From Candidatus Planktophila lacus (lineage in GTDB: Bacteria; Actinomycetota; Actinomycetes; Nanopelagicales; Nanopelagicaceae), in the NCBI RefSeq assembly GCF_002288325.1, contig NZ_CP016780.1:868001-932000 (forward strand): a stretch of DNA of 64,000 nucleotides. The letters run 5' to 3'. The notes beneath the pieces were generated by a model, which made no database searches, had not been told where the DNA came from, and saw only the letters and a program-made list of their open reading frames with translations. Of the stretch, positions 43,271 through 56,585 are shown piece after piece. Within the stretch, counting starts at the first letter, position 1, and each line of letters begins with the position of its first letter. Made by a program: the position numbers and the translations under genes.

Positions 43271-44349
43271 TAGATAACTCGTTTAACCCAGCCGTGCTTA
43301 TCTGCAGTTGTACCGTGCTGAATTGCGAGCAAATGATTGCGGATTTGCATAGTGATCGCACCAGGCTGTCCATCACCTGTTACCCAAGTACCCATTGCGC
43401 TCTTAGCTTGGCCAACTGGTGAAACAACAGCGGCAGTACCGCAAGCAAAGATTTCGGTGATCTCACCGGATGAAACACCGATGCGCCAGTCGTCGATAGA
43501 GAGCATCACTTCATCGGTCTTGTAACCAAGATCTTTTGCAGCGGACAAAATTGAATCGCGAGTAATACCTGGCAATAAAGTGCCGGTTAACTTTGGAGTA
43601 ATAACAGTTGCATCGGCGCCTTCGCCCTTTACGAAGTAAAGGTTCATGCCGCCCATTTCTTCAATCCACTTGCGCTCTTTGGCATCGATCCAAACAACTT
43701 GATCGCAGCCTTCTTTTGCGGCTGCCTTCTGTGCAACAAGGGAAGCCGCATAGTTTCCGCCGCACTTTGCTTCACCAGTTCCGCCTTGTGCTGCGCGGAC
43801 ATATTCAGTTGAGATCCAAACAGATACTGCCTTAGATGGATCAAAGTAAGCACCCGCTGGCGTTGCAATAAGAATGTAAGTTGCTTTATTTGATGGGCGA
43901 ACGCCTAAACCAACTTCGGTAGCGATCATAAATGGGCGTATATATAGAGATTCGCCGACTTTATTTGGAACCCATCCTGCATCTTGCTTTACAAGAGTTT
44001 CAACTGTTTCGAGGAAAAGTGCTTCGGGCATTTCTGGAAGTGCTAGACGCGCTGCCGATTTTGCAAAGCGTCGCGCATTTGCTTCAGGACGAAATAGTGC
44101 GATTCCGCCATCTGGTTGGCGATAAGCCTTCATACCTTCGAAGATCTCTTGTCCATAATGGAAAACTGCTGTTGCTGGATCAAGTGAGAGCGGCCCGTAA
44201 GGAATTAACTCTGGTTCAGCCCAGCCACCATCTTGCGTCCATTCGCAGATAACCATGTGGTCTGTGTAGTACTTACCAAATCCGCCTTCGGCAACCAAAG
44301 CATCGCGAGTCGCGGCATCTTTAGCGTTGGGATTTAGTTTGATCTTCAT
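43270..44349 (-). CDS. ilvE: Branched-chain amino acid aminotransferase
   Basis: A 359-residue fold-type IV PLP transaminase that makes Leu, Ile and Val from their oxo acids. The EAKCGGNYAAS segment carries the expected catalytic lysine, and the PLP-phosphate site lies near SSGEITEIFACGTAA. ATG 44349 is chosen since it lies one base beyond the leuB stop; an in-frame upstream start at 44373 would overlap leuB. It is coupled to cimA downstream (TAATG). Confidence 0.94.
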   Translation of the reverse strand: MKIKLNPNAKDAATRDALVAEGGFGKYYTDHMVICEWTQDGGWAEPELIPYGPLSLDPATAVFHYGQEIFEGMKAYRQPDGGIALFRPEANARRFAKSAARLALPEMPEALFLETVETLVKQDAGWVPNKVGESLYIRPFMIATEVGLGVRPSNKATYILIATPAGAYFDPSKAVSVWISTEYVRAAQGGTGEAKCGGNYAASLVAQKAAAKEGCDQVVWIDAKERKWIEEMGGMNLYFVKGEGADATVITPKLTGTLLPGITRDSILSAAKDLGYKTDEVMLSIDDWRIGVSSGEITEIFACGTAAVVSPVGQAKSAMGTWVTGDGQPGAITMQIRNHLLAIQHGTTADKHGWVKRVI

Positions 44350-44350
44350 T

Positions 44351-45385
44351 TTAAAGTTGCGCGAGTAGCGCATCTCCGATTTCTGTAGTGCTTCGCTTCT
44401 TATCAGCGCGTGCTAGTAAATCTGCATTTACGGCCGCTTCGATCTCACGAGCAGCATCTGCATAACCCAAGTGGTCCATCATCATCGCAACTGACATAAC
44501 TGTTGCAGTTGGGTCAGCTAAGTTCTTGCCCGCGATATCTGGCGCTGAGCCGTGTACTGGCTCGAACATTGATGGAAATGCTCCGGTTGGATTGATATTG
44601 CCAGAGGCTGCAAGACCAATGCCGCCGCAGATTGCTGCTGCGATATCGGTCAAGATATCTCCAAATAAGTTATCGGTTACGACAACGTCAAAGCGTTCTG
44701 GGTTGGTAACGAAGAACATTGATGCGGCATCAACGTGCAGGTAATCAGTAGTTACACCTGGGAACTCTTTGGCAACTTCATTGAAGGTGCGGGTCCAAAG
44801 GCTGCCAGCGCGAGTTAATACATTGTTCTTGTGAACAAGCGTTAACTTCTTGCGATCGCGCTTTGCGGCGCGCGCAAAGGCATCACGAATTACTCGCTCA
44901 GCACCGCGGCGGGTATTTAGAGATTCTTCAGTTGCGATTTCGGCATCGGTTCCTTCAGCAAGAACTCCGCCAGCGCCAACGTATGGGCCTTCGGTTCCTT
45001 CACGAACCACGATGAAATCGATTGGCGCCTTTGTAGCAAGCGGACCAGTTACACCAGCGCGCAAGACAGCAGGACGCAAGTTGATGTAGTGATCGAATGC
45101 GAAGCGAAGCTTAAGAAGCAATCCGCGTTCTAGAACTCCACTTGGAACTGTTGGATCTCCAACCGCTCCTAGCAAGATGACATCTGCCTTAGCGATTTCA
45201 GCAAGAACGGAATCTGGCAGAACTTCTCCAGTGCGATGCCAATAACCTGCGCCAAGATCGTATTCGGTCTTAGTGAAAGTCACGTCGTACTTTGCGGCGA
45301 CCTTATCGAGAACGCGAAGACCTTGGGCAACCACTTCTGGTCCAATTCCATCGCCTGCGATAACAGCAAGATTTATATTTTTCAT
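44351..45385 (-). CDS. leuB: 3-isopropylmalate dehydrogenase
   Basis: A 344-residue NAD-dependent beta-decarboxylating dehydrogenase. The AGDGIGPEV motif is at the N-terminus and the metal-binding [12 protein letters not shown] segment lies near residue 215-230. It acts in leucine synthesis and, with citramalate-derived 3-methylmalate, in isoleucine synthesis, which suits its place beside cimA. Start ATG 45385, 10 bp after serA. LeuC and LeuD are not in the window. Confidence 0.94.
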
Positions 45386-45395
45386 ATAGCGCCCA

Positions 45396-48346
<2,951 letters not shown>

Positions 48347-48347
<1 letters not shown>

Positions 48348-50107
48348 TAGAGCTCCTGTGAATCCCAGTCGGGCGCAGTAGCGCGAGCGATCATGATTTC
48401 ATCATTTGAAGTTCCGGCAGCAACCATCGGCCAAACCATCGCATCGCGATGTACGCGGAAATCAACAACAACTGGTTGGTCATTGATCGACATCGCTTTC
48501 TCAATTGTCTTATCCAAATCTTCCGGGCGTTCGCAAGCAAGACCAACGCAACCCATACTTTCAGCGAGCATCGGGAAGTTAGGAACACGCTTTGATTCGA
48601 GGTTGGTATTTGAGTAACGACCTTCGTAGAACAAGGTCTGCCATTGGCGAACCATGCCGAGAGATTCGTTATTGATAATCGCAACCTTGATTGGAATATT
48701 GTTAAGTGCACAGGTAACGAGTTCCTGATTTGTCATCTGGAAACATCCATCACCATCTATCGCCCAAACAGTTGCATCTGGTGCGCCAACTTTTGCACCC
48801 ATCGCAGCAGGAACGCCGTAACCCATGGTGCCTGCACCACCTGAGTTGAGCCAAGTGCGAGGATGTTCGTATGAAATAAATTGTGATGCCCACATCTGAT
48901 GTTGGCCAACGCCTGCGGTAAAGATGGTGTCGGTACCAGATATCTGACCAATTCTTTGGATTACATGTTGTGGTGACAATGAACCATCTTCAGGTTGGTC
49001 ATAACCCAATGGATATGTGGACTTAAGCGAATTCATCTGTCGCAACCATGCTGAGAGATCAGGTTGGTTCTTTGCAAGAGCCGCTTTAAGCGCAGGAATA
49101 AGAGCTGAAATGGTTTCACGTACATCTCCGACAACTGCAACATCGGCATGGCGGTTCTTACCGATTTCAGCAGGATCAATATCTGCATGAAGAATCTTTG
49201 CGTTCGGTGCAAATGTAGAAAGCTTTCCGGTAACGCGATCATCGAAACGAGCACCTAAAGTGATTAGTAGGTCGGCCTTTTGTAGCGCTGTAACAGCGGC
49301 TACAGTGCCGTGCATTCCTGGCATACCCATATGCAGCGGATGTGAATCTGGGAAAGCACCGCGTGCCATAAGAGTTGTAACAACGGGCGCTTCAAGAAGT
49401 TCAACAAGTTGACGAAGTTCTTTATGAGCGTTGGCCTTGATTACGCCGCCACCAACATAGAAGACCGGCTTTGATGATTGCGCGATTAGCGCAGCAGCAT
49501 CGGTGATCGCCTGTGCATCAGGAGTTGTCTTTGGGTTGTAACCAGCAAGCTTGATCGAAGTTGGCCAGTTAAAAGAAGTCATCTTCTGTAGCGCATCTTT
49601 AGCAACGTCTACGAGAACAGGACCTGGACGACCAGTTGTTGCGATATGGAAAGCCTCAGCGATAACGCCAGGGATTTCATCGGGGTTGGTTACCAAATAA
49701 TTGTGCTTTGTAAACGGCATGGTGATTCCGCGAATATCAGCTTCCTGGAATGCATCGGTACCGATTGCCGCAGATGGAACTTGGCCGGTGATTGCAATTA
49801 GAGGAACTGAATCCATTGCAGCATCCATTAAAGGCGTAACTAGGTTTGTCGCACCAGGACCAGATGTTGCGATACAGACACCTGCGCGCCCAGTAACTTG
49901 CGCATAGCCAGTTGCTGCGTGACCTGCGCCTTGTTCGTGGCGAACCAAGATATGGCGAATAGTTGAATCAAAGATCGGATCGTAAGCAGGAAGAATTGCG
50001 CCGCCTGGCAGTCCGAACATCACTTCTACATTTGCTGCTTCTAGGCTTTTCACCAATGAAGTAGCTCCTGTCATTGCTGTGCCGTTGGCCGTTGGTATGT
50101 GCGCCAT
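48347..50107 (-). CDS. ilvB: Acetolactate synthase catalytic subunit
   Basis: A 586-residue ThDP enzyme forming acetolactate or acetohydroxybutyrate. The N-terminus has [15 protein letters not shown], and the ThDP motif [12 protein letters not shown]...NN lies near residue 450-480. ATG 50107 is preceded by GGAG at 9 nt. It is the first structural gene after a Val/Ile leader peptide and terminator (separate entries), so transcription is probably attenuated in response to branched-chain aminoacyl-tRNA. Confidence 0.96.
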
Positions 50108-50176
50108 CTTCTTACTCCTTTCCGTACTCTCGTTTTGGTTTCTAACTTTTTATTTCTACAATTCATTTTTTAAATG

Positions 50177-50201
50177 AAAAAACCCTCAGAGGATCTGAGG
50201 G
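50177..50201 (-). terminator. Strong intrinsic terminator in the ilvB leader (attenuator)
   Basis: CCCTCAGA (50183-50190) and TCTGAGGG (50194-50201) form a perfect 8-bp stem with a 3-nt loop. On the minus strand it is followed directly by TTTTTT (complement of 50177-50182). It lies after the leader peptide and about 70 nt before the ilvB start, so it should terminate unless prevented. This is the classical position of an attenuator. Confidence 0.88.
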
Positions 50202-50225
50202 CGCGTGCGTTAAAAAGGCACGCGC
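50201..50225 (-). promoter_or_regulatory. G/C-rich hairpin between leader stop codon and terminator
   Basis: GCGCGTGC and GCACGCGC (50201-50208 and 50218-50225) form a perfect 8-bp stem. Its outer edge overlaps the leader stop codon and it shares one base with the terminator stem. GTGCGCGC within the leader coding region can pair with the first arm (with two G-U pairs), so alternative folds depending on ribosome position are possible. Which fold blocks termination is not clear from inspection. Confidence 0.6.
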
Positions 50226-50281
50226 TATCGAATGACCACCACAATTACTGATGACGAGATGAGCGCGCACTTCTTTGACAT
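50225..50281 (-). CDS. ilvL: ilv leader peptide, 18 residues
   Basis: A short open frame, ATG 50281 to TAG, encodes MSKKCALISSSVIVVVIR. Seven of its last twelve residues are Val or Ile and Leu comes earlier, as expected for control codons sensing branched-chain aminoacyl-tRNA. A GGAG lies 9 nt upstream, yet the predicted transcription start falls on or near the ATG, so it may be translated leaderless. A terminator and hairpins follow. C. glutamicum ilvBNC is a known precedent for this type of control in actinobacteria. Confidence 0.85.
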   Translation of the reverse strand: MSKKCALISSSVIVVVIR

Positions 50282-50287
50282 ACGAGT

Positions 50288-50317
50288 ATTCTCCATCGCA
50301 GATGGCAGTTGAGTCAA
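50288..50317 (-). promoter_or_regulatory. Predicted ilvB operon promoter
   Basis: On the minus strand TTGACT (complement of 50312-50317) and GAGAAT (complement of 50288-50293) are separated by 18 bp. The expected start lies about 7 nt further, at or next to position 50281, the A of the leader ATG. The -10 box is imperfect. A perfect inverted repeat TTTGAGA/TCTCAAA at 50320-50339 lies immediately upstream of the -35 box and could bind a regulator. Confidence 0.55.
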
Positions 50318-50319
50318 GG

Positions 50320-50339
50320 TTTGAGATGTAAGTCTCAAA
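50320..50339 (-). promoter_or_regulatory. Inverted repeat between ilvD stop and ilvB promoter
   Basis: TTTGAGA-(6 nt)-TCTCAAA is a perfect 7+7 inverted repeat, 9 bp after the ilvD stop and directly upstream of the predicted -35 box. No T-tract follows, so it is more likely an operator or activator site than a terminator, although a weak ilvD end hairpin is possible. Confidence 0.45.
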
Positions 50340-50347
50340 TTGTGAAA

Positions 50348-52021
50348 CTAGCCGCAGACAGCGCCCTTTGAGGCCGAGCCAACGGTCTTGGAATACTTCG
50401 CCAGAACCCCACGGGTGAATTTGTGAGGAAGCGGCTTCCATCCAACTTTGCGAGCTTCGAGTTCTGCCGGGTCAACTAAGAGATCTAAGGTGCGCGCCTT
50501 GATATCAATGCGCACTCGATCTCCATCTTTTATAAATGCAATCGGTCCACCGTCTACTGCTTCAGGTGCAACGTGCCCAACACATAGACCAGTTGATCCA
50601 CCAGAGAAGCGACCATCAGTTAAGAGCAGAGTTGATTTACCAAGTCCTGCTCCTTTAATCGCACCAGTAATCATCAACATCTCGCGCATACCTGGTCCAC
50701 CCTTTGGACCTTCGTAGCGAATCACAACTACATCGCCAGATTGGATCGTTCCATTTTCGAGCGCTTCCATCGCAGCTTGTTCGCGTTCAAAAACGCGCGC
50801 TGGTCCTTCGAAAGATTCGATACCTATACCTGCGGTCTTACAGACTGCGCCATCGGAAGCAAGTGAACCACCAAGAATTGTGATTCCGACATCTGTTGAA
50901 AGTGGTGTTGAAATTGCATGCAAAATATCGCCATCTACATCTGGAGGATTAATCCCCGCAAGGTTTTCGGCCATAGTTTTTCCGGTAACTGTCATTACAT
51001 CGCCATGCAATAAACCGGCATCGAGAAGCGCCTTAAGTACAACAGGTACTCCCCCGACTTTATCCATGTCGCTCATTACATAGCGACCGAAAGGCTTTAA
51101 ATCTCCGAGTAGTGGAACTTTTGAACCAATACGGTGGAAATCATCAAGCGATAAGTCAACTTCTGCTTCGTGTGCAATCGCTAGCAAGTGAAGAACTGCG
51201 TTTGTAGAACCACCAAGTGCCATAACGGCGGTGATGGCATTTTCAAATGCGCGCTTTGTAAGAATGTCGCGAGTTGTTAGACCCAGCTTGATCATATTTA
51301 CAACTGCAGCACCTGATGCAACCGCGAAAGCATCGCGGCGGCGATCAACTGCAGGAGGTGCGGCAGATCCTGGAAGTGAGAGGCCGATTGCTTCGCCAAC
51401 AGTTGCCATTGTGTTCGCGGTGTACATGCCACCGCAAGCGCCTTCACCCGGACAGATTGCGCGCTCAATTTGATCGACGCGTTCTTGGGTAATTAATCCG
51501 CGAGCACAAGCACCAACTGCTTCGAAGGCATCGATGATGGTTACATCTTTGCCATCTACTTGCCCTGGAAGAGTTGATCCGGCATAAACAAATACAGATG
51601 CAACATCTATACGTGCTGCCGCCATCATCATTCCAGGCAGTGATTTATCGCACCCAGCAAATGTAACCATGCCATCAAGGCGTTCGGCCTGCATAACTGT
51701 TTCAACTGAATCGGCAATTACTTCACGAGAAACAAGTGAGAAGTGCATTCCTTCGTGTCCCATAGAAATTCCATCAGAGACTGAAATAGTGCCGAATTGC
51801 ATTGGGAACCCACCGGCATCAATTACACCTTGCTTAGAAGCTTTAGCTAAGCGATCTAACGAGAGATTACATGGGGTGATTTCATTCCAAGATGAAGCAA
51901 TGCCGATCTGAGGCTTTACCCAATCTTCATCACCCATACCGACTGCGCGAAGCATTCCGCGGGCAGGTGCGCGCTCTAAGCCATCTGTGACCAAACCCGA
52001 ACGTGGCTTCATCTGCGACAT
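50348..52021 (-). CDS. ilvD: Dihydroxy-acid dehydratase
   Basis: A 557-residue Fe-S dehydratase giving the oxo acids of Val and Ile. The three cluster-region cysteines are visible in [17 protein letters not shown] and [15 protein letters not shown] 52021 is chosen, giving [13 protein letters not shown] 52012 is also possible and a GTG at 52045 is unlikely. A perfect 15-bp palindrome lies just upstream of the start. It is transcribed toward ilvB but that gene has its own leader and promoter. Confidence 0.95.
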
Positions 52022-52027
52022 GGCAAT

Positions 52028-52042
52028 GAGTCTAATAGACTC
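52028..52042. promoter_or_regulatory. Perfect 15-bp palindrome between ilvD and the MFS gene
   Basis: GAGTCTA-A-TAGACTC (7+1+7) lies 7 bp upstream of the ilvD ATG and 56 bp upstream of the MFS start. Its location in a 76-bp divergent promoter gap suggests an operator that could serve both genes. I see no clear -35/-10 boxes. Confidence 0.5.
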
Positions 52043-52097
52043 CACTCATTCACTTCAATATTTAACCAAATTGCTTAACGTTTCCGAGGAGATTTCT

Positions 52098-53570
52098 GTG
52101 TCAAAAAAGCCCGTCCAATTAGATAAAGATGGTTTAGATCCAAATCGCTGGCGCACGCTCTTTGTGGTTGCCATTTCTCAATTAATGGTCGTTCTCGACT
52201 CATCAATTGTAAATATTGCTATCCCAAGTGCAAAGGCTGATCTCGGGATTACCGATGCAAATCAGCAGTGGGTTATCACTGCCTACACCTTGGCTTTTGG
52301 TTCTTTGCTTCTAATTGGCGGGCGCATTGGTGACTTCATGGGCCGTAAGAAAATCTTTATCATCGGGCTCGCAGGTTTCGCAGCCGCTTCCGCTCTTGGC
52401 GGAGTAGCTGCAAATCAAGAGTTGCTCTTTGCTTCCCGTGCGCTACAAGGTGTTTTCGGTGCCCTTCTTGCACCTGCAGCACTGGCAATTATTTCTGTAA
52501 CTTTCACAGTACCTGCAGAGCGCGCTAAAGCATTCGGTGTCGTTGGCGCAATCTCAGGCGGAGGCGCAGCCATTGGATTAATCCTTGGCGGAACCCTTAC
52601 TGAGTACTTCTCATGGCGCTGGTGTTTAGGTGTCAACGTTCCGATCGCGGTATTCGCTGGCTTAATGGCCTTCTTCTATGTCAGAGAATCAAAAGCTGGC
52701 GGCGAACATAGCTACGACATTCCTGGTGTTATCACTGCAACTGCAGGTCTCTTCTCGCTGACTTACGGTTTTAATGAAGCAGCGACCAAGGGTTGGTCAT
52801 CACAGAGCACAATTACATTCTTAGTTGTCGCCGTACTTCTCTTGGTTTCATTTGTTGTAATCGAAGCCAAGGTTTCAAATCCAATGATGCCGCTGCGCGT
52901 TGTAACAGAGCGCAACCGCGGTGGTTCATACCTAGGTTCCCTAATCGTCGGAGCCGGTCTCTTCTCGATGTTCTTATTCCTAGGTCTTTACCTACAAGTC
53001 GTACTTGGGTACTCACCACTTAAATCAGGTTTTGCATTCCTGCCATTTACTGCAGGAATCATCGTGTTCGCGGGAATTGCTTCTCAGCTCTTGCCTAAAT
53101 TCGGTCCTCGTCCGCTGATGGTGCCAGGCTTAGTTTTCGCAGGTATTGGTCTGCTTATGTTGACCTTGATTACCCCAGAAACTTCCTACGTAACGCATGT
53201 GCTTCCATCGCTTCTCATTATGAGCTCTGGAATGGCGCTGGTCTTTATTCCACTAACTTCAACTTCACTACACGGGGTTAGCAATCAAGATACTGGCGTC
53301 GCTAGCGCGATGATCAATACCAGCCAGCAGGTTGGTGGATCACTCGGTACTGCACTACTTAATACAGTCGCGGCAACCGCTGCGACTAACTACATCGCGG
53401 CAAACCAAAGTATGGGCGAAAAGGTGCAAGCCTTTGGAATCACACATGGTTTCACAGTTGCATTTACCGTATCTGCTGGCTTGTTATTTGCTGGTGCGAT
53501 CGTGCTCTTCTTCTTTATCAACGTTGGGAAAGATTCTCTCGTTGAAACAGAAGGCGTTTCAGTTCACTAA
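52098..53570 (+). CDS. DHA2-type MFS transporter (14 TMS)
   Basis: A 490-residue major facilitator protein with about 14 hydrophobic helices, the layout of DHA2 drug:proton antiporters (EmrB/QacA type). Motif D1-like LDSSIVNIAIPS is in helix 1 and motif A GGRIGDFMGRKK follows helix 2. GTG 52098 is chosen because GAGGAG lies 6 nt upstream. It is one of only three plus-strand genes and converges with gatB at a 10-bp gap. The substrate is unknown; a link to amino acid export is possible from its position opposite ilvD but not shown. Confidence 0.88.
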   Translation: MSKKPVQLDKDGLDPNRWRTLFVVAISQLMVVLDSSIVNIAIPSAKADLGITDANQQWVITAYTLAFGSLLLIGGRIGDFMGRKKIFIIGLAGFAAASALGGVAANQELLFASRALQGVFGALLAPAALAIISVTFTVPAERAKAFGVVGAISGGGAAIGLILGGTLTEYFSWRWCLGVNVPIAVFAGLMAFFYVRESKAGGEHSYDIPGVITATAGLFSLTYGFNEAATKGWSSQSTITFLVVAVLLLVSFVVIEAKVSNPMMPLRVVTERNRGGSYLGSLIVGAGLFSMFLFLGLYLQVVLGYSPLKSGFAFLPFTAGIIVFAGIASQLLPKFGPRPLMVPGLVFAGIGLLMLTLITPETSYVTHVLPSLLIMSSGMALVFIPLTSTSLHGVSNQDTGVASAMINTSQQVGGSLGTALLNTVAATAATNYIAANQSMGEKVQAFGITHGFTVAFTVSAGLLFAGAIVLFFFINVGKDSLVETEGVSVH

Positions 53571-53580
53571 TAAATTAAAA

Positions 53581-55089
53581 TTAATTAGTTGGCTGACCTA
53601 AGTGGCCAAGTAGAAGCTCTCGTACGCGAGCAGCATCTGCTTGGCCCTTTGTCTCTTTCATGACTGCACCGATCAAAGCACCCGCTGCAGGAACATGTCC
53701 ATTACGGACTTTATCTGCAGTCTCTGCTTGCTCAGCACAAACCTTCTCAATGGCTGCCATTAGCGCGCCATCATCGTTAACAACTTTAATACCGCGCTTT
53801 GCCACAACTTCGGAAGGCTTTCCTTCGCCAGCGATTACGCCTTCTACAACTTGGCGGGCCAACTTATCTGTTAGCTCGCCTGCAGCAACTAGCGCAACGA
53901 TTTCAGCAACATCAGCAGGTGTGATTGAGAGATCTTGAATCGCAGAATCTTTTTCGTTTGCGATACGTGAGATTTCACCGAGCCACCAAGTACGCGCCTT
54001 AGTTGGTTCTGCACCAAGCAGAACGGTTGCTTCCACGATATCCAAAACGTCAGCGTTAATCATCGCGGCCATCTCTTTATCTGGAACAGACCATTCCTCT
54101 TTCAAGCGCTTACGACGTAGTGATGGGCGCTCCGGTAATTGCTTGCGAAGAGTTTCGATCCAGGCAGCATCTGGTGCAACTGGAACTAGATCTGGTTCAG
54201 GGAAGTAACGGTAATCCTCGGCTTGTTCTTTTGAGCGACCAGAACGAGTTAGCCCTGACTCTTCTTGGAAGTGACGAGTCTCTTGCTTAACTTTCTTGCC
54301 ATCATTTAGAAGTTCAGCGTGACGAATCATTTCACCGCGGATAGCGCGCTCGACAGAGCGAAGAGAGTTTACGTTCTTGGTTTCAGAGCGCGTTCCAAGA
54401 ACATCAGAACCGATTATGCGAAGCGAAACGTTGGCATCGCAACGAAGCGAGCCTTGCTCCATCTTTACATCCGAAACCTTTAAGCCGCGCAAGATGTCAC
54501 GGAGTTCGGCAACGTATGCCTTAGCAACTTCTGGCGCGTACTTGCCAGTGCCAGGAACAATCTTGGTAACGATTTCAACAAGTGGAATTCCGGCGCGGTT
54601 GTAATCAAGGAGCGAATATTCCGCGCCATGGATGCGGCCAGTTGCGCCACCAACGTGGAGCGACTTTCCGGTGTCTTCTTCCATGTGTACGCGTTCAATT
54701 TCGATGCGGAACTGCTTTGGACCTTCTTCAGTTTCGATCTCAACATCGACATATCCATCGAAACAGATTGGTTCGTCGTACTGCGAAATCTGGAAGTTCT
54801 TAGGCATATCTGGATAGAAATAATTCTTGCGGGCAAAGCGGCTATATGGCGCGATCTGGCAATTAAGTGCCAAGCCAATCTTGATCGTTGATTCGATCGC
54901 TGTGGCATTTACAACTGGTAGCGCGCCAGGTAGCGCCAAGCAGACTGGGCACGTTTGAGTGTTCGGCTCTGCACCGAAAGTGGTGCTGCAAGAGCAGAAC
55001 ATCTTGGACTCGGTATTTAGTTCAACGTGAACTTCTAGACCAAGTACTGGTTCGTACTTTGAAATTACATCGTCATAGGTAAGCGCCAT
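53581..55089 (-). CDS. gatB: Aspartyl/glutamyl-tRNA amidotransferase subunit B
   Basis: A 502-residue GatB. It phosphorylates mischarged Glu-tRNA-Gln or Asp-tRNA-Asn and transfers ammonia from GatA. The N-terminal [10 protein letters not shown] and FCSC-type segments are family features; the C-terminal YqeY-like tail binds tRNA. Start ATG 55089 overlaps gatA by one base. It is the last gene of the obg-proB-proA-gatCAB run. Confidence 0.96.
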
Positions 55090-56585
55090 TACTTGGCACC
55101 TCCCAAAACTGGAACCTGGTCAATTAAATATCCGCCCCATTTGCTCACCAAAGCTGCTTCAAGTGCGCCACCAACTTCATATAGACGTTGGTCTTGCATC
55201 GCTGGCGCCATGATCTGGAAACCAACTGGCAGACCATCTTCATCAGCTAATCCTGCTGGCAGGCTCATTCCGCAAATACCGGCAAGGTTTACCGGAATTG
55301 TTGCTACATCTGCCAAATACATCGCGATTGGATCTTCAGATTTTTCACCGATCTTAAAGGCGGTGATTGGTGATGTTGGTGAAACCAATACATCTGCCTT
55401 AGTAAATGCCTTCTTGTAATCTTCAATAATCAAGGTACGGATCTTCTGTGCACTGCCGTAGTACGCATCGTAATAACCAGATGAGAGTGCATATGTACCG
55501 AGGATGATGCGGCGCTTAACCTCGCGGCCAAATCCTGCTTCGCGGGTTGCGTTCATGACTGTTTCGGCAGATGCGCCATCGACATCGCCTGTCCGTAGTC
55601 CATAACGCATAGCGTCAAAGCGGGCTAAGTTGGAAGAGCATTCAGATGGTGCGATCAAGTAGTAAGCAGCAAGTGCATATTCGAAACTTGGGCAATCAAC
55701 TTCAACGATTTCAGCGCCAAGAGATGCAAGTAGCTCAAGTGATTCGTTAAAACGGGCAAGGACACCGTTCTGATAACCATCGCCCTGCAACTGCTTGATT
55801 ACGCCGATCTTCTTTCCCTTTACATCTGCGCTACGTGCTGCAGCAACAACGTTTGGAACAGCGGCGTTAATGCTCGTTGCATCCTTAGGATCATGTCCGG
55901 CCATGACTTCATGCAAGAGCGCCGTATCTAATACTGTGCGACCAAATGGACCTGCTTGATCAAGACTTGAGGAGTAAGCGATAAGACCGTAACGAGAAAC
56001 TGCTCCGTAAGTTGGACGAACGCCAACGATTCCAGTTAGCGCTGCAGGTTGGCGAATCGAACCGCCAGTATCAGAACCAACTGCGATGGGCGCTTCAAAT
56101 GCGCTAACCGCTGCAGCTGATCCACCACTTGAACCACCTGGAGTGCGAGTTAAATCCCATGGATTAAAAGTTGGGCCATAGCCTGAGTTTTCAGTAGAAG
56201 AACCCATTGCGAATTCATCCATATTGGTTTTACCAAGAATTACAACGCCGGCCTGCTTTAACTTTGAAACGACAGTTGAGTCATACGGCGGTTTCCAACC
56301 CTGCAAGATCTTTGATCCCGCTGTTGTCGGTACGCCTTCTTGGGCTAAGACATCTTTAAGTGCAAGTGGAACACCTGCAAGTGGGTGCAACTTCTTTCCA
56401 GCAGCGCGTTCGGCATCAACTTTGGCGGCTTGGGCAAGTGCGTTTTCGCCATCGACATGTAGAAATGCTTTTACCTTTGAATCGACCTCACTGATGCGAT
56501 CTAAATGGCTTTGGGTAAGCGCAACCGAAGTCGTCTCCCCCGATGTCAGGGATGCTGACATTTGTGCAGCAGTCTTTTTAATCAT
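55089..56585 (-). CDS. gatA: Aspartyl/glutamyl-tRNA amidotransferase subunit A
   Basis: A 498-residue amidase-signature glutaminase subunit. The Ser-cisSer-Lys triad is visible: Lys77 (ALKDVL), the cis-Ser in [10 protein letters not shown] near 152-156, and Ser176 in [10 protein letters not shown]. It releases ammonia from glutamine for GatB. ATG 56585 overlaps the gatC stop by 4 bp. Confidence 0.96.

Follow-up and report, generated by a model that had tools for sequence, protein, structure and literature searches.

In 2005 the switching of the actinobacterial ilvB attenuator was called not clear (PMC1262725), and the models given since then for Corynebacterium glutamicum (2025, PMC11857589) and Mycobacterium tuberculosis (2026, PMC13236596) assume overlapping or mutually exclusive pairing. 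The ilvBNC attenuator of C. glutamicum is the ilvB-II motif (PMC10272879); in this system expression rose 7- to 8-fold when the terminator-antiterminator region was mutated (PMC11857589). In the ilvB1 leader of M. tuberculosis induction was abolished by the change of LVVI to AAAA (PMC13236596), and in Streptomyces coelicolor the replacement of candidate control codons is reported to have had no effect (PMC1262725). In this study we analyze the ilvB leader of Candidatus Planktophila lacus, a member of the Nanopelagicales, a group for which no description of an ilvB leader was found in the literature searched (mainly titles and abstract openings, with few subscription journals). The element is a conserved leader-peptide attenuator; its kind is known, and its variant feature is a junction of hairpin and terminator without common arms.

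The window is the whole stretch of DNA that was analyzed, 64,000 nucleotides from a genome that consists of a single 1.38 Mb contig. The leader region lies on the (-) strand between ilvD, which ends at 50348, and ilvB, behind which ilvN and then ilvC follow on the same strand. These four genes were named by NCBIfam matches; other (-) strand genes resemble serA, leuB, ilvE and a citramalate or isopropylmalate synthase. The IlvN encoded at 48054-48347 on the (-) strand has only 97 aa, aligns to positions 2-79 of a 158-residue small-subunit model and is without the C-terminal domain; a search of the same genome with the small-subunit model returned no second copy. The coordinates of the elements of the leader are collected in Table 1. 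The earlier note, made from the sequence alone, had described here a frame of 18 codons whose peptide ends in SVIVVVIR, then a hairpin (hairpin A in what follows) and a terminator with six Us, all upstream of ilvB; every one of these elements is present where the note had placed it, and the overlap of a single base that it had reported between hairpin and terminator is exact, since the two have only position 50201 in common. A leader stretch of 171 nt folds better than all of its 200 shuffles (z = -3.6). At the gathering score, Rfam release 15 recognizes no family in positions 44000-56000 of the window, and none in 8 loci of the class; a snoR9 match seen at a lax threshold lies on the + strand and far under its cut-off, and was discarded.

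Table 1. Elements of the ilvB leader region, in window coordinates.
Feature	Position	Strand	Remarks
Palindrome TTTGAGA-N6-TCTCAAA	50320..50339	(-)	2 nt upstream of the -35 element; probable transcription-factor site, as predicted from sequence
-35 element TTGACT	50312..50317	(-)	TTGAC nearly constant in distance to the leader ATG in 110/113 relatives
-10 element GAGAAT	50288..50293	(-)	6 nt between the -10 element and the leader ATG
Leader frame MSKKCALISSSVIVVVIR*	50225..50281	(-)	18 codons + TAG; ATG 50281-50279, stop TAG 50227-50225; promoter spacing and frame conserved in the family
H1-like helix, 5' strand (codons 3-8)	50262..50276	(-)	partner strand 50212-50229, which takes in the 5' arm of hairpin A; P 0.98 in ribosome-free RNA
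Control codons GTA ATT GTG GTG GTC ATT (V I V V V I)	50231..50248	(-)	
Hairpin A, GCGCGTGC-N9-GCACGCGC	50201..50225	(-)	-14.0 kcal/mol; GC-rich; begins with the G of the stop codon; proposed antiterminating element
Intrinsic terminator CCCTCAGATCCTCTGAGGG + U6	50177..50201	(-)	stem and loop 50201-50183, six T 50182-50177; abuts hairpin A
ilvB, acetolactate synthase large subunit	48347..50107	(-)	first gene behind the attenuator; ATG at 50107

The comparison was carried out at the level of the family and of the class. Matches to ilvB were found in 258 of 296 Nanopelagicaceae genomes, and upstream regions were taken from 124 of these. The terminator rule failed in 11 of the 124, mostly on account of a short U-tract, although a similar layout was visible by eye, and 113 were kept; 3 of the 113 failed the ATG rule, which left 110 leaders, and 1 more, with a mis-assigned hairpin A, was excluded from folding, which left 109. 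For the class, 148 genomes (13 of them in the family) were searched, yielding 70 ilvB upstream regions, 69 of which belong to other families. A further 35 loci were chosen from 80; most carry a genus name (Streptomyces, Kitasatospora, Nocardioides, Kribbella, Cellulomonas, Frankia, Blastococcus and others), and they are not fully independent of the class set, as at least one of them (L285) comes from the same genome as a member of that set (G332). Four MAG records (L252, L274, L276, L300) are titled Bifidobacterium breve; L252 apparently belongs to the genus of the window, so that at least its title looks wrong, and the other three have 71-73% IlvB identity.

Taken alone, the promoter of the window is a weak match (9/12; a scan of 701 bases would yield 0.7 sites of this quality by chance), and it is credible because it is conserved in the relatives, not from its own match score. 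The distance from the start of the -35 element to the ATG is 36 nt in 70, 35 nt in 39 and 37 nt in 1 of the 113 relatives with a recognized terminator; the three exceptions are due to a GTG start, a contig end and a second TTGAC. The -10 element of the 110 family leaders reads GAGAAT in 85, GACAAT in 8 and GATAAT in 5. With +1 taken as seven nucleotides past the end of the -10 element, this spacing predicts a transcription start on the A of the leader ATG (50281) or on a neighboring base, and hence a leaderless leader peptide. A leaderless transcript, which the earlier note had raised as a possibility, is thus predicted from a promoter-to-ATG spacing that is nearly fixed, in keeping with parallels in Streptomyces lividans, where IlvL is transcribed leaderless (PMC8079986), and in C. 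glutamicum, where 1 nt separates the transcript start from the start codon (PMC11857589). An in-frame upstream ATG (50296) was rejected as the start, because it overlaps the -10 element and the same codon is ATG in only 14 of the 110 leaders and TTG in 58. In one relative (G265, locus L147) the leader frame apparently opens with GTG, and the promoter spacing is unchanged.

The palindrome upstream of the promoter is also shared by the relatives. Among the 101 family promoters with enough upstream sequence, GAGA-N6-TCTC occurs in 87, in 82 of these at 4 nt before the -35 element, and the half-site TGAGA in 97. In the genome of the window, the only exact match to TGAGAC-N4-ATCTCA among the matches listed is the ilvB promoter palindrome itself. 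With up to 2 mismatches, a palindrome near TTGAC is found in 11 of 58 class regions vs 0 of 58 shuffled ones. It is likely, to judge from these patterns, that ilvB is under a further regulator that binds the palindrome; the NdgR motif of S. coelicolor (PMC4340878) does not match the palindrome and was rejected as the identity of the operator.

An in-frame run of at least 3 V/I/L codons was recognized in all 110 parsed relatives, while the length of the leader peptide ranges from 9 to 29 residues; spacing and frame are therefore conserved, and length is not. The earlier note had named the loss of the frame or of the control codons in close relatives as grounds to reject its reading; no such loss occurs among the 110 parsed leaders. 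Overall the runs contain 322 Val, 131 Ile and 11 Leu codons. Val is written as GTG in 278 of the 322, whereas in six genes of the window GTG makes up 5% of 218 Val codons. The tRNA-Val anticodons among the 40 tRNA genes of the same genome are TAC (two copies) and GAC (two copies); since a tRNA-Val(CAC) is absent from these 40 genes, GTG must be decoded by wobble. This unusual choice of GTG argues for selection on the run. In 109 of the 110 leaders the stop codon of the frame is located at -4 to +13 nt relative to the first base of hairpin A.

The position of hairpin A with respect to the terminator is the feature that recurs in the relatives. In an open search, in which overlaps of up to 4 nt and gaps of up to 21 nt were allowed, the end of the best hairpin was -1 to +3 nt from the first CC of the terminator for 79 of the 84 distinct sequences of the family; for the other 5 the distance was 16-18 nt. 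When the search was restricted to the range -3 to +6, the linker in the 113 sequences was 0 (40 sequences), -1 (39, as in the window), +1 (24), -2 (7), +3 (2) and -3 (1). Hairpin A and terminator therefore overlap by 1-3 nt in 47 of the 113 family sequences, and do not overlap (flush, or with a gap of 1-3 nt) in 66 of these 113 and in 45 of 56 class sequences, counts that vary with whether an outer A-U or G-U pair is assigned to the terminator. The flush hairpin of the family has a median of -15.2 kcal/mol vs -5.2 kcal/mol in dinucleotide shuffles; 46 of the 84 distinct sequences beat all 40 shuffles, with p≤0.05 in 66 and p>0.05 in 18. Across these 84 sequences the pairs of hairpin A vary on both sides, and stem, loop and closing pair are all variable; as pairs were counted from the base of the stem, this variation is partly a register shift. 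In the terminator, both arms are altered together in one relative (G295, CCCACTGA/TCAGTGGG). Within the window itself, a flush hairpin of -9 kcal/mol or lower accompanies 1 of 7 terminators, that of the ilvB leader only.

A similar arrangement is encountered outside the family. A class-wide hairpin search without length limit produced multiloops in GC-rich DNA and was replaced by single-hairpin searches reaching 24 nt and 4 nt. With the search restricted to ±4 nt, a hairpin of -9 kcal/mol or lower is found within 3 nt of the terminator in 56 of the 69 regions from other families; the other 13 comprise 7 in which no terminator was found, 5 passed over because the terminator call was wrong or weak, and 1 without a flush hairpin. 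When hairpins up to 24 nt away were admitted, only 42 of 58 regions of the class set had their best hairpin within 3 nt of the terminator. The median energy of the flush hairpin in the class is -20.6 vs -9.6 kcal/mol shuffled, with p≤0.05 in 30 of 57 regions and p>0.05 in 27, shuffling being a weaker control in GC-rich DNA. A flush hairpin together with a BCAA-rich uORF is present in 31 of the 35 chosen loci, with the stop codon of the uORF near the foot of hairpin A or inside it. From the class counts and these 31 loci it can be seen that the abutting layout is common in the actinomycetes examined. The earlier note had remarked that the usual antiterminator is not obvious and that the mechanism may be a variant: structurally this was right, with the qualification that the layout is shared by the relatives examined and is not a local oddity.

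We have studied the effect of the ribosome on the folding of the leader with a model in which the ribosome extends 13 nt beyond the first base of its A-site codon and folding is confined to the RNA 3' of the ribosome. With the A-site at the first codon of the run, 105 of the 109 leaders in this model form hairpin A (P>0.5); the number falls to 99 at the second codon, to 64 at the third and to 0 at the stop codon. For the window, the P of hairpin A is 0.91-0.93 for stalls at codons 12-15, 0.61 at codon 16 and 0.10 at codon 17. If pairing is allowed on both sides of the ribosome, the window leader is without hairpin A for stalls at codon 13 and later, because codons 3-8 capture its 5' arm; on steric grounds, with about 4 nt of slack on each side, such pairing around a stalled ribosome is unlikely. 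In ribosome-free RNA a helix on the 5' arm of hairpin A, which the earlier note had not recognized, is predicted at P>0.5 in 18 of the 109 family leaders, all of the genus of the window, and the codons involved are not always the same.

Folding predicts that hairpin A and terminator form together, each at P>0.8, in 102 of the 109 sequences of the family and in 50 of the 56 of the class, and thus mutual exclusion is not predicted by pairing. When the RNA from hairpin A onward was folded, upstream pairing of the 5' arm of the terminator exceeded P 0.5 in none of the 109 family sequences and in 1 of the 56 from the class, and P 0.3 in 3 and 2, respectively. Two other pairings were considered and set aside. 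The Val codons (GGUGGUG) can pair with the junction CGCUACC in part of the family, as judged by eye, and this pairing has the wrong sign because a stalled ribosome covers those codons; a pseudoknot between loop and terminator (GCCUU with AGGGU), also recognized by eye, is apparently limited to the near relatives of the window. In 45 of 110 leaders the run is preceded by at most 18 nt, so that a stalled ribosome covers nearly all of the upstream RNA and hardly any antiterminator other than hairpin A is possible; by elimination, hairpin A should itself hinder the terminator.

We regard it as probable that the ilvB operon is controlled by ribosome-mediated transcription attenuation, with hairpin A as the antiterminating element. 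The leader peptide with attenuator that the earlier note had proposed is borne out in the family by the conservation of the frame, of the V/I codons, of the hairpins and of their position before ilvB. In the mechanism that we envisage, transcription would begin on the A of the leader ATG or on an adjacent base, and a ribosome would load on the 5' end of the transcript. When the charging of Val- or Ile-tRNA falls short, the ribosome would stall on the Val/Ile run, hairpin A would form, and transcription would read through into ilvB; when the amino acids are plentiful, the ribosome would reach the stop codon at the foot of hairpin A, which would then be blocked, leading to termination. If there is no translation, codons 3-8 would capture the 5' arm of hairpin A and leave the terminator. 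While the elements, their conservation and the ribosome geometry rest on sequence and folding, what we infer is the transcription start, the sign of the regulation and the effect of abutment. The LVVI result of M. tuberculosis (PMC13236596) supports the proposed sign, and the codon-replacement result of S. coelicolor (PMC1262725) does not.

As for the last step, we favor, tentatively and as a possibility rather than as the expected outcome, the view that a hairpin sharing no arm with the terminator prevents termination sterically, so that the exclusive states would arise from geometry and not from base pairing. With the GC-rich base of hairpin A flush against the terminator stem, full closure of the latter would be blocked in the exit channel of RNA polymerase. 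Abutment, if it acts in this way, would account for the difficulty of finding an overlapping antiterminator in actinobacterial ilvB leaders. In the literature searched, again mainly titles and abstract openings with few subscription journals, we found no case of antitermination by non-overlapping abutting hairpins.

The last step could also be of the 'fast' type of C. glutamicum, with hairpin A and terminator competing by branch migration for a few bases at the junction, without steric exclusion. In C. glutamicum antiterminator and terminator are adjacent and have a boundary GCC in common, and mutations there alter expression (PMC11857589); the common base of the window and the overlap of 1-3 nt in 47 of the 113 family sequences are consistent with such a competition. 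Against this, the 66 of 113 family and 45 of 56 class sequences without overlap indicate that common bases cannot be the general switch, and we consider branch migration a serious but rather doubtful explanation. Hairpin A might instead be a pause hairpin that keeps the polymerase in step with the ribosome, antitermination being then due to a protein factor or to coupling. Its foot lies about 8-10 nt before the terminator loop, which would be near the place expected for a hairpin-stabilized pause, and a pause has been proposed for the top of the H1 hairpin of C. glutamicum (PMC11857589). However, a pause role alone requires neither the tight junction found in 79 of 84 sequences nor a leader frame that ends at the foot of hairpin A or within its 5' arm, and appears unlikely.

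Another reading is that hairpin A and terminator jointly terminate more strongly, and that the leader peptide plays no part in control. The two hairpins are predicted to coexist; clusters of neighboring hairpins have been proposed to cause termination, which is the opposite sign to abutment (PMC8355165); and the codon replacements in S. coelicolor were reportedly without effect (PMC1262725). This is difficult to reconcile with a V/I/L run in frame with the promoter-set ATG in 110 of 110 leaders, with a choice of GTG for 278 of 322 Val codons vs 5% in the six genes of the window, and with the loss of induction upon replacement of LVVI in M. tuberculosis (PMC13236596), and we hold it to be very improbable. 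That a chance frame and a chance hairpin precede an ordinary terminator can practically be dismissed: the promoter match by itself is at chance level, but the conservation in family and class contradicts this view, as does the median of -15.2 vs -5.2 kcal/mol shuffled for the flush hairpin (p≤0.05 in 66 of 84).

Our analysis suggests that the constant element of these leaders consists of two flush hairpins with a stop codon at the foot of the first or inside it. If abutment alone blocks an intrinsic terminator, systems of this type will escape any search based on overlapping alternative pairings, and hairpins in tandem will need a different reading. The leader also brings together a selective choice of codon (GTG) and a predicted leaderless control in freshwater bacteria with small genomes.

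These results can be set against the systems described so far. The 'fast attenuator' of ilvBNC in C. glutamicum resembles the window in having a BCAA leader near the transcript start (1 nt there), an antiterminator that adjoins the terminator, an upstream anti-antiterminator helix (H1) and a terminator before ilvB (PMC11857589). It differs in the trinucleotide GCC common to both of its hairpins, whereas the window has 1 common base and 66 of the 113 relatives have none; moreover, the upstream helix is present in the window (P 0.98) but in only 18 of 109 family leaders. The ilvB1NC leader of M. tuberculosis likewise has a BCAA uORF and an intrinsic terminator before ilvB1, and, as in our model, an upstream hairpin that is allowed by a stalled ribosome and masked by a ribosome at the stop codon; unlike that of the window, its antiterminator was published as mutually exclusive with the terminator, a comparison made by description (PMC13236596). 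In S. lividans and S. coelicolor IlvL is a leaderless leader (MRTRILVLGKRVG in S. lividans) with a terminator before ilvB (PMC8079986, PMC1262725), as predicted for the window. The Streptomyces loci among the 35 that were chosen have the abutting hairpin as well, while Streptomyces IlvL differs from the window in a longer hairpin A and in mixed I/L/V codons instead of a Val run. The polycysteine leaderless short ORFs of mycobacteria reportedly also combine a leaderless start with a run of control codons, for another amino acid and in other operons. With ribosome-mediated attenuators in the broad sense the window shares consecutive control codons, an intrinsic terminator and, as predicted by folding, a structure that depends on the position of the ribosome; from the classical trp-type attenuator it departs in that the arm common to antiterminator and terminator is reduced to one base.
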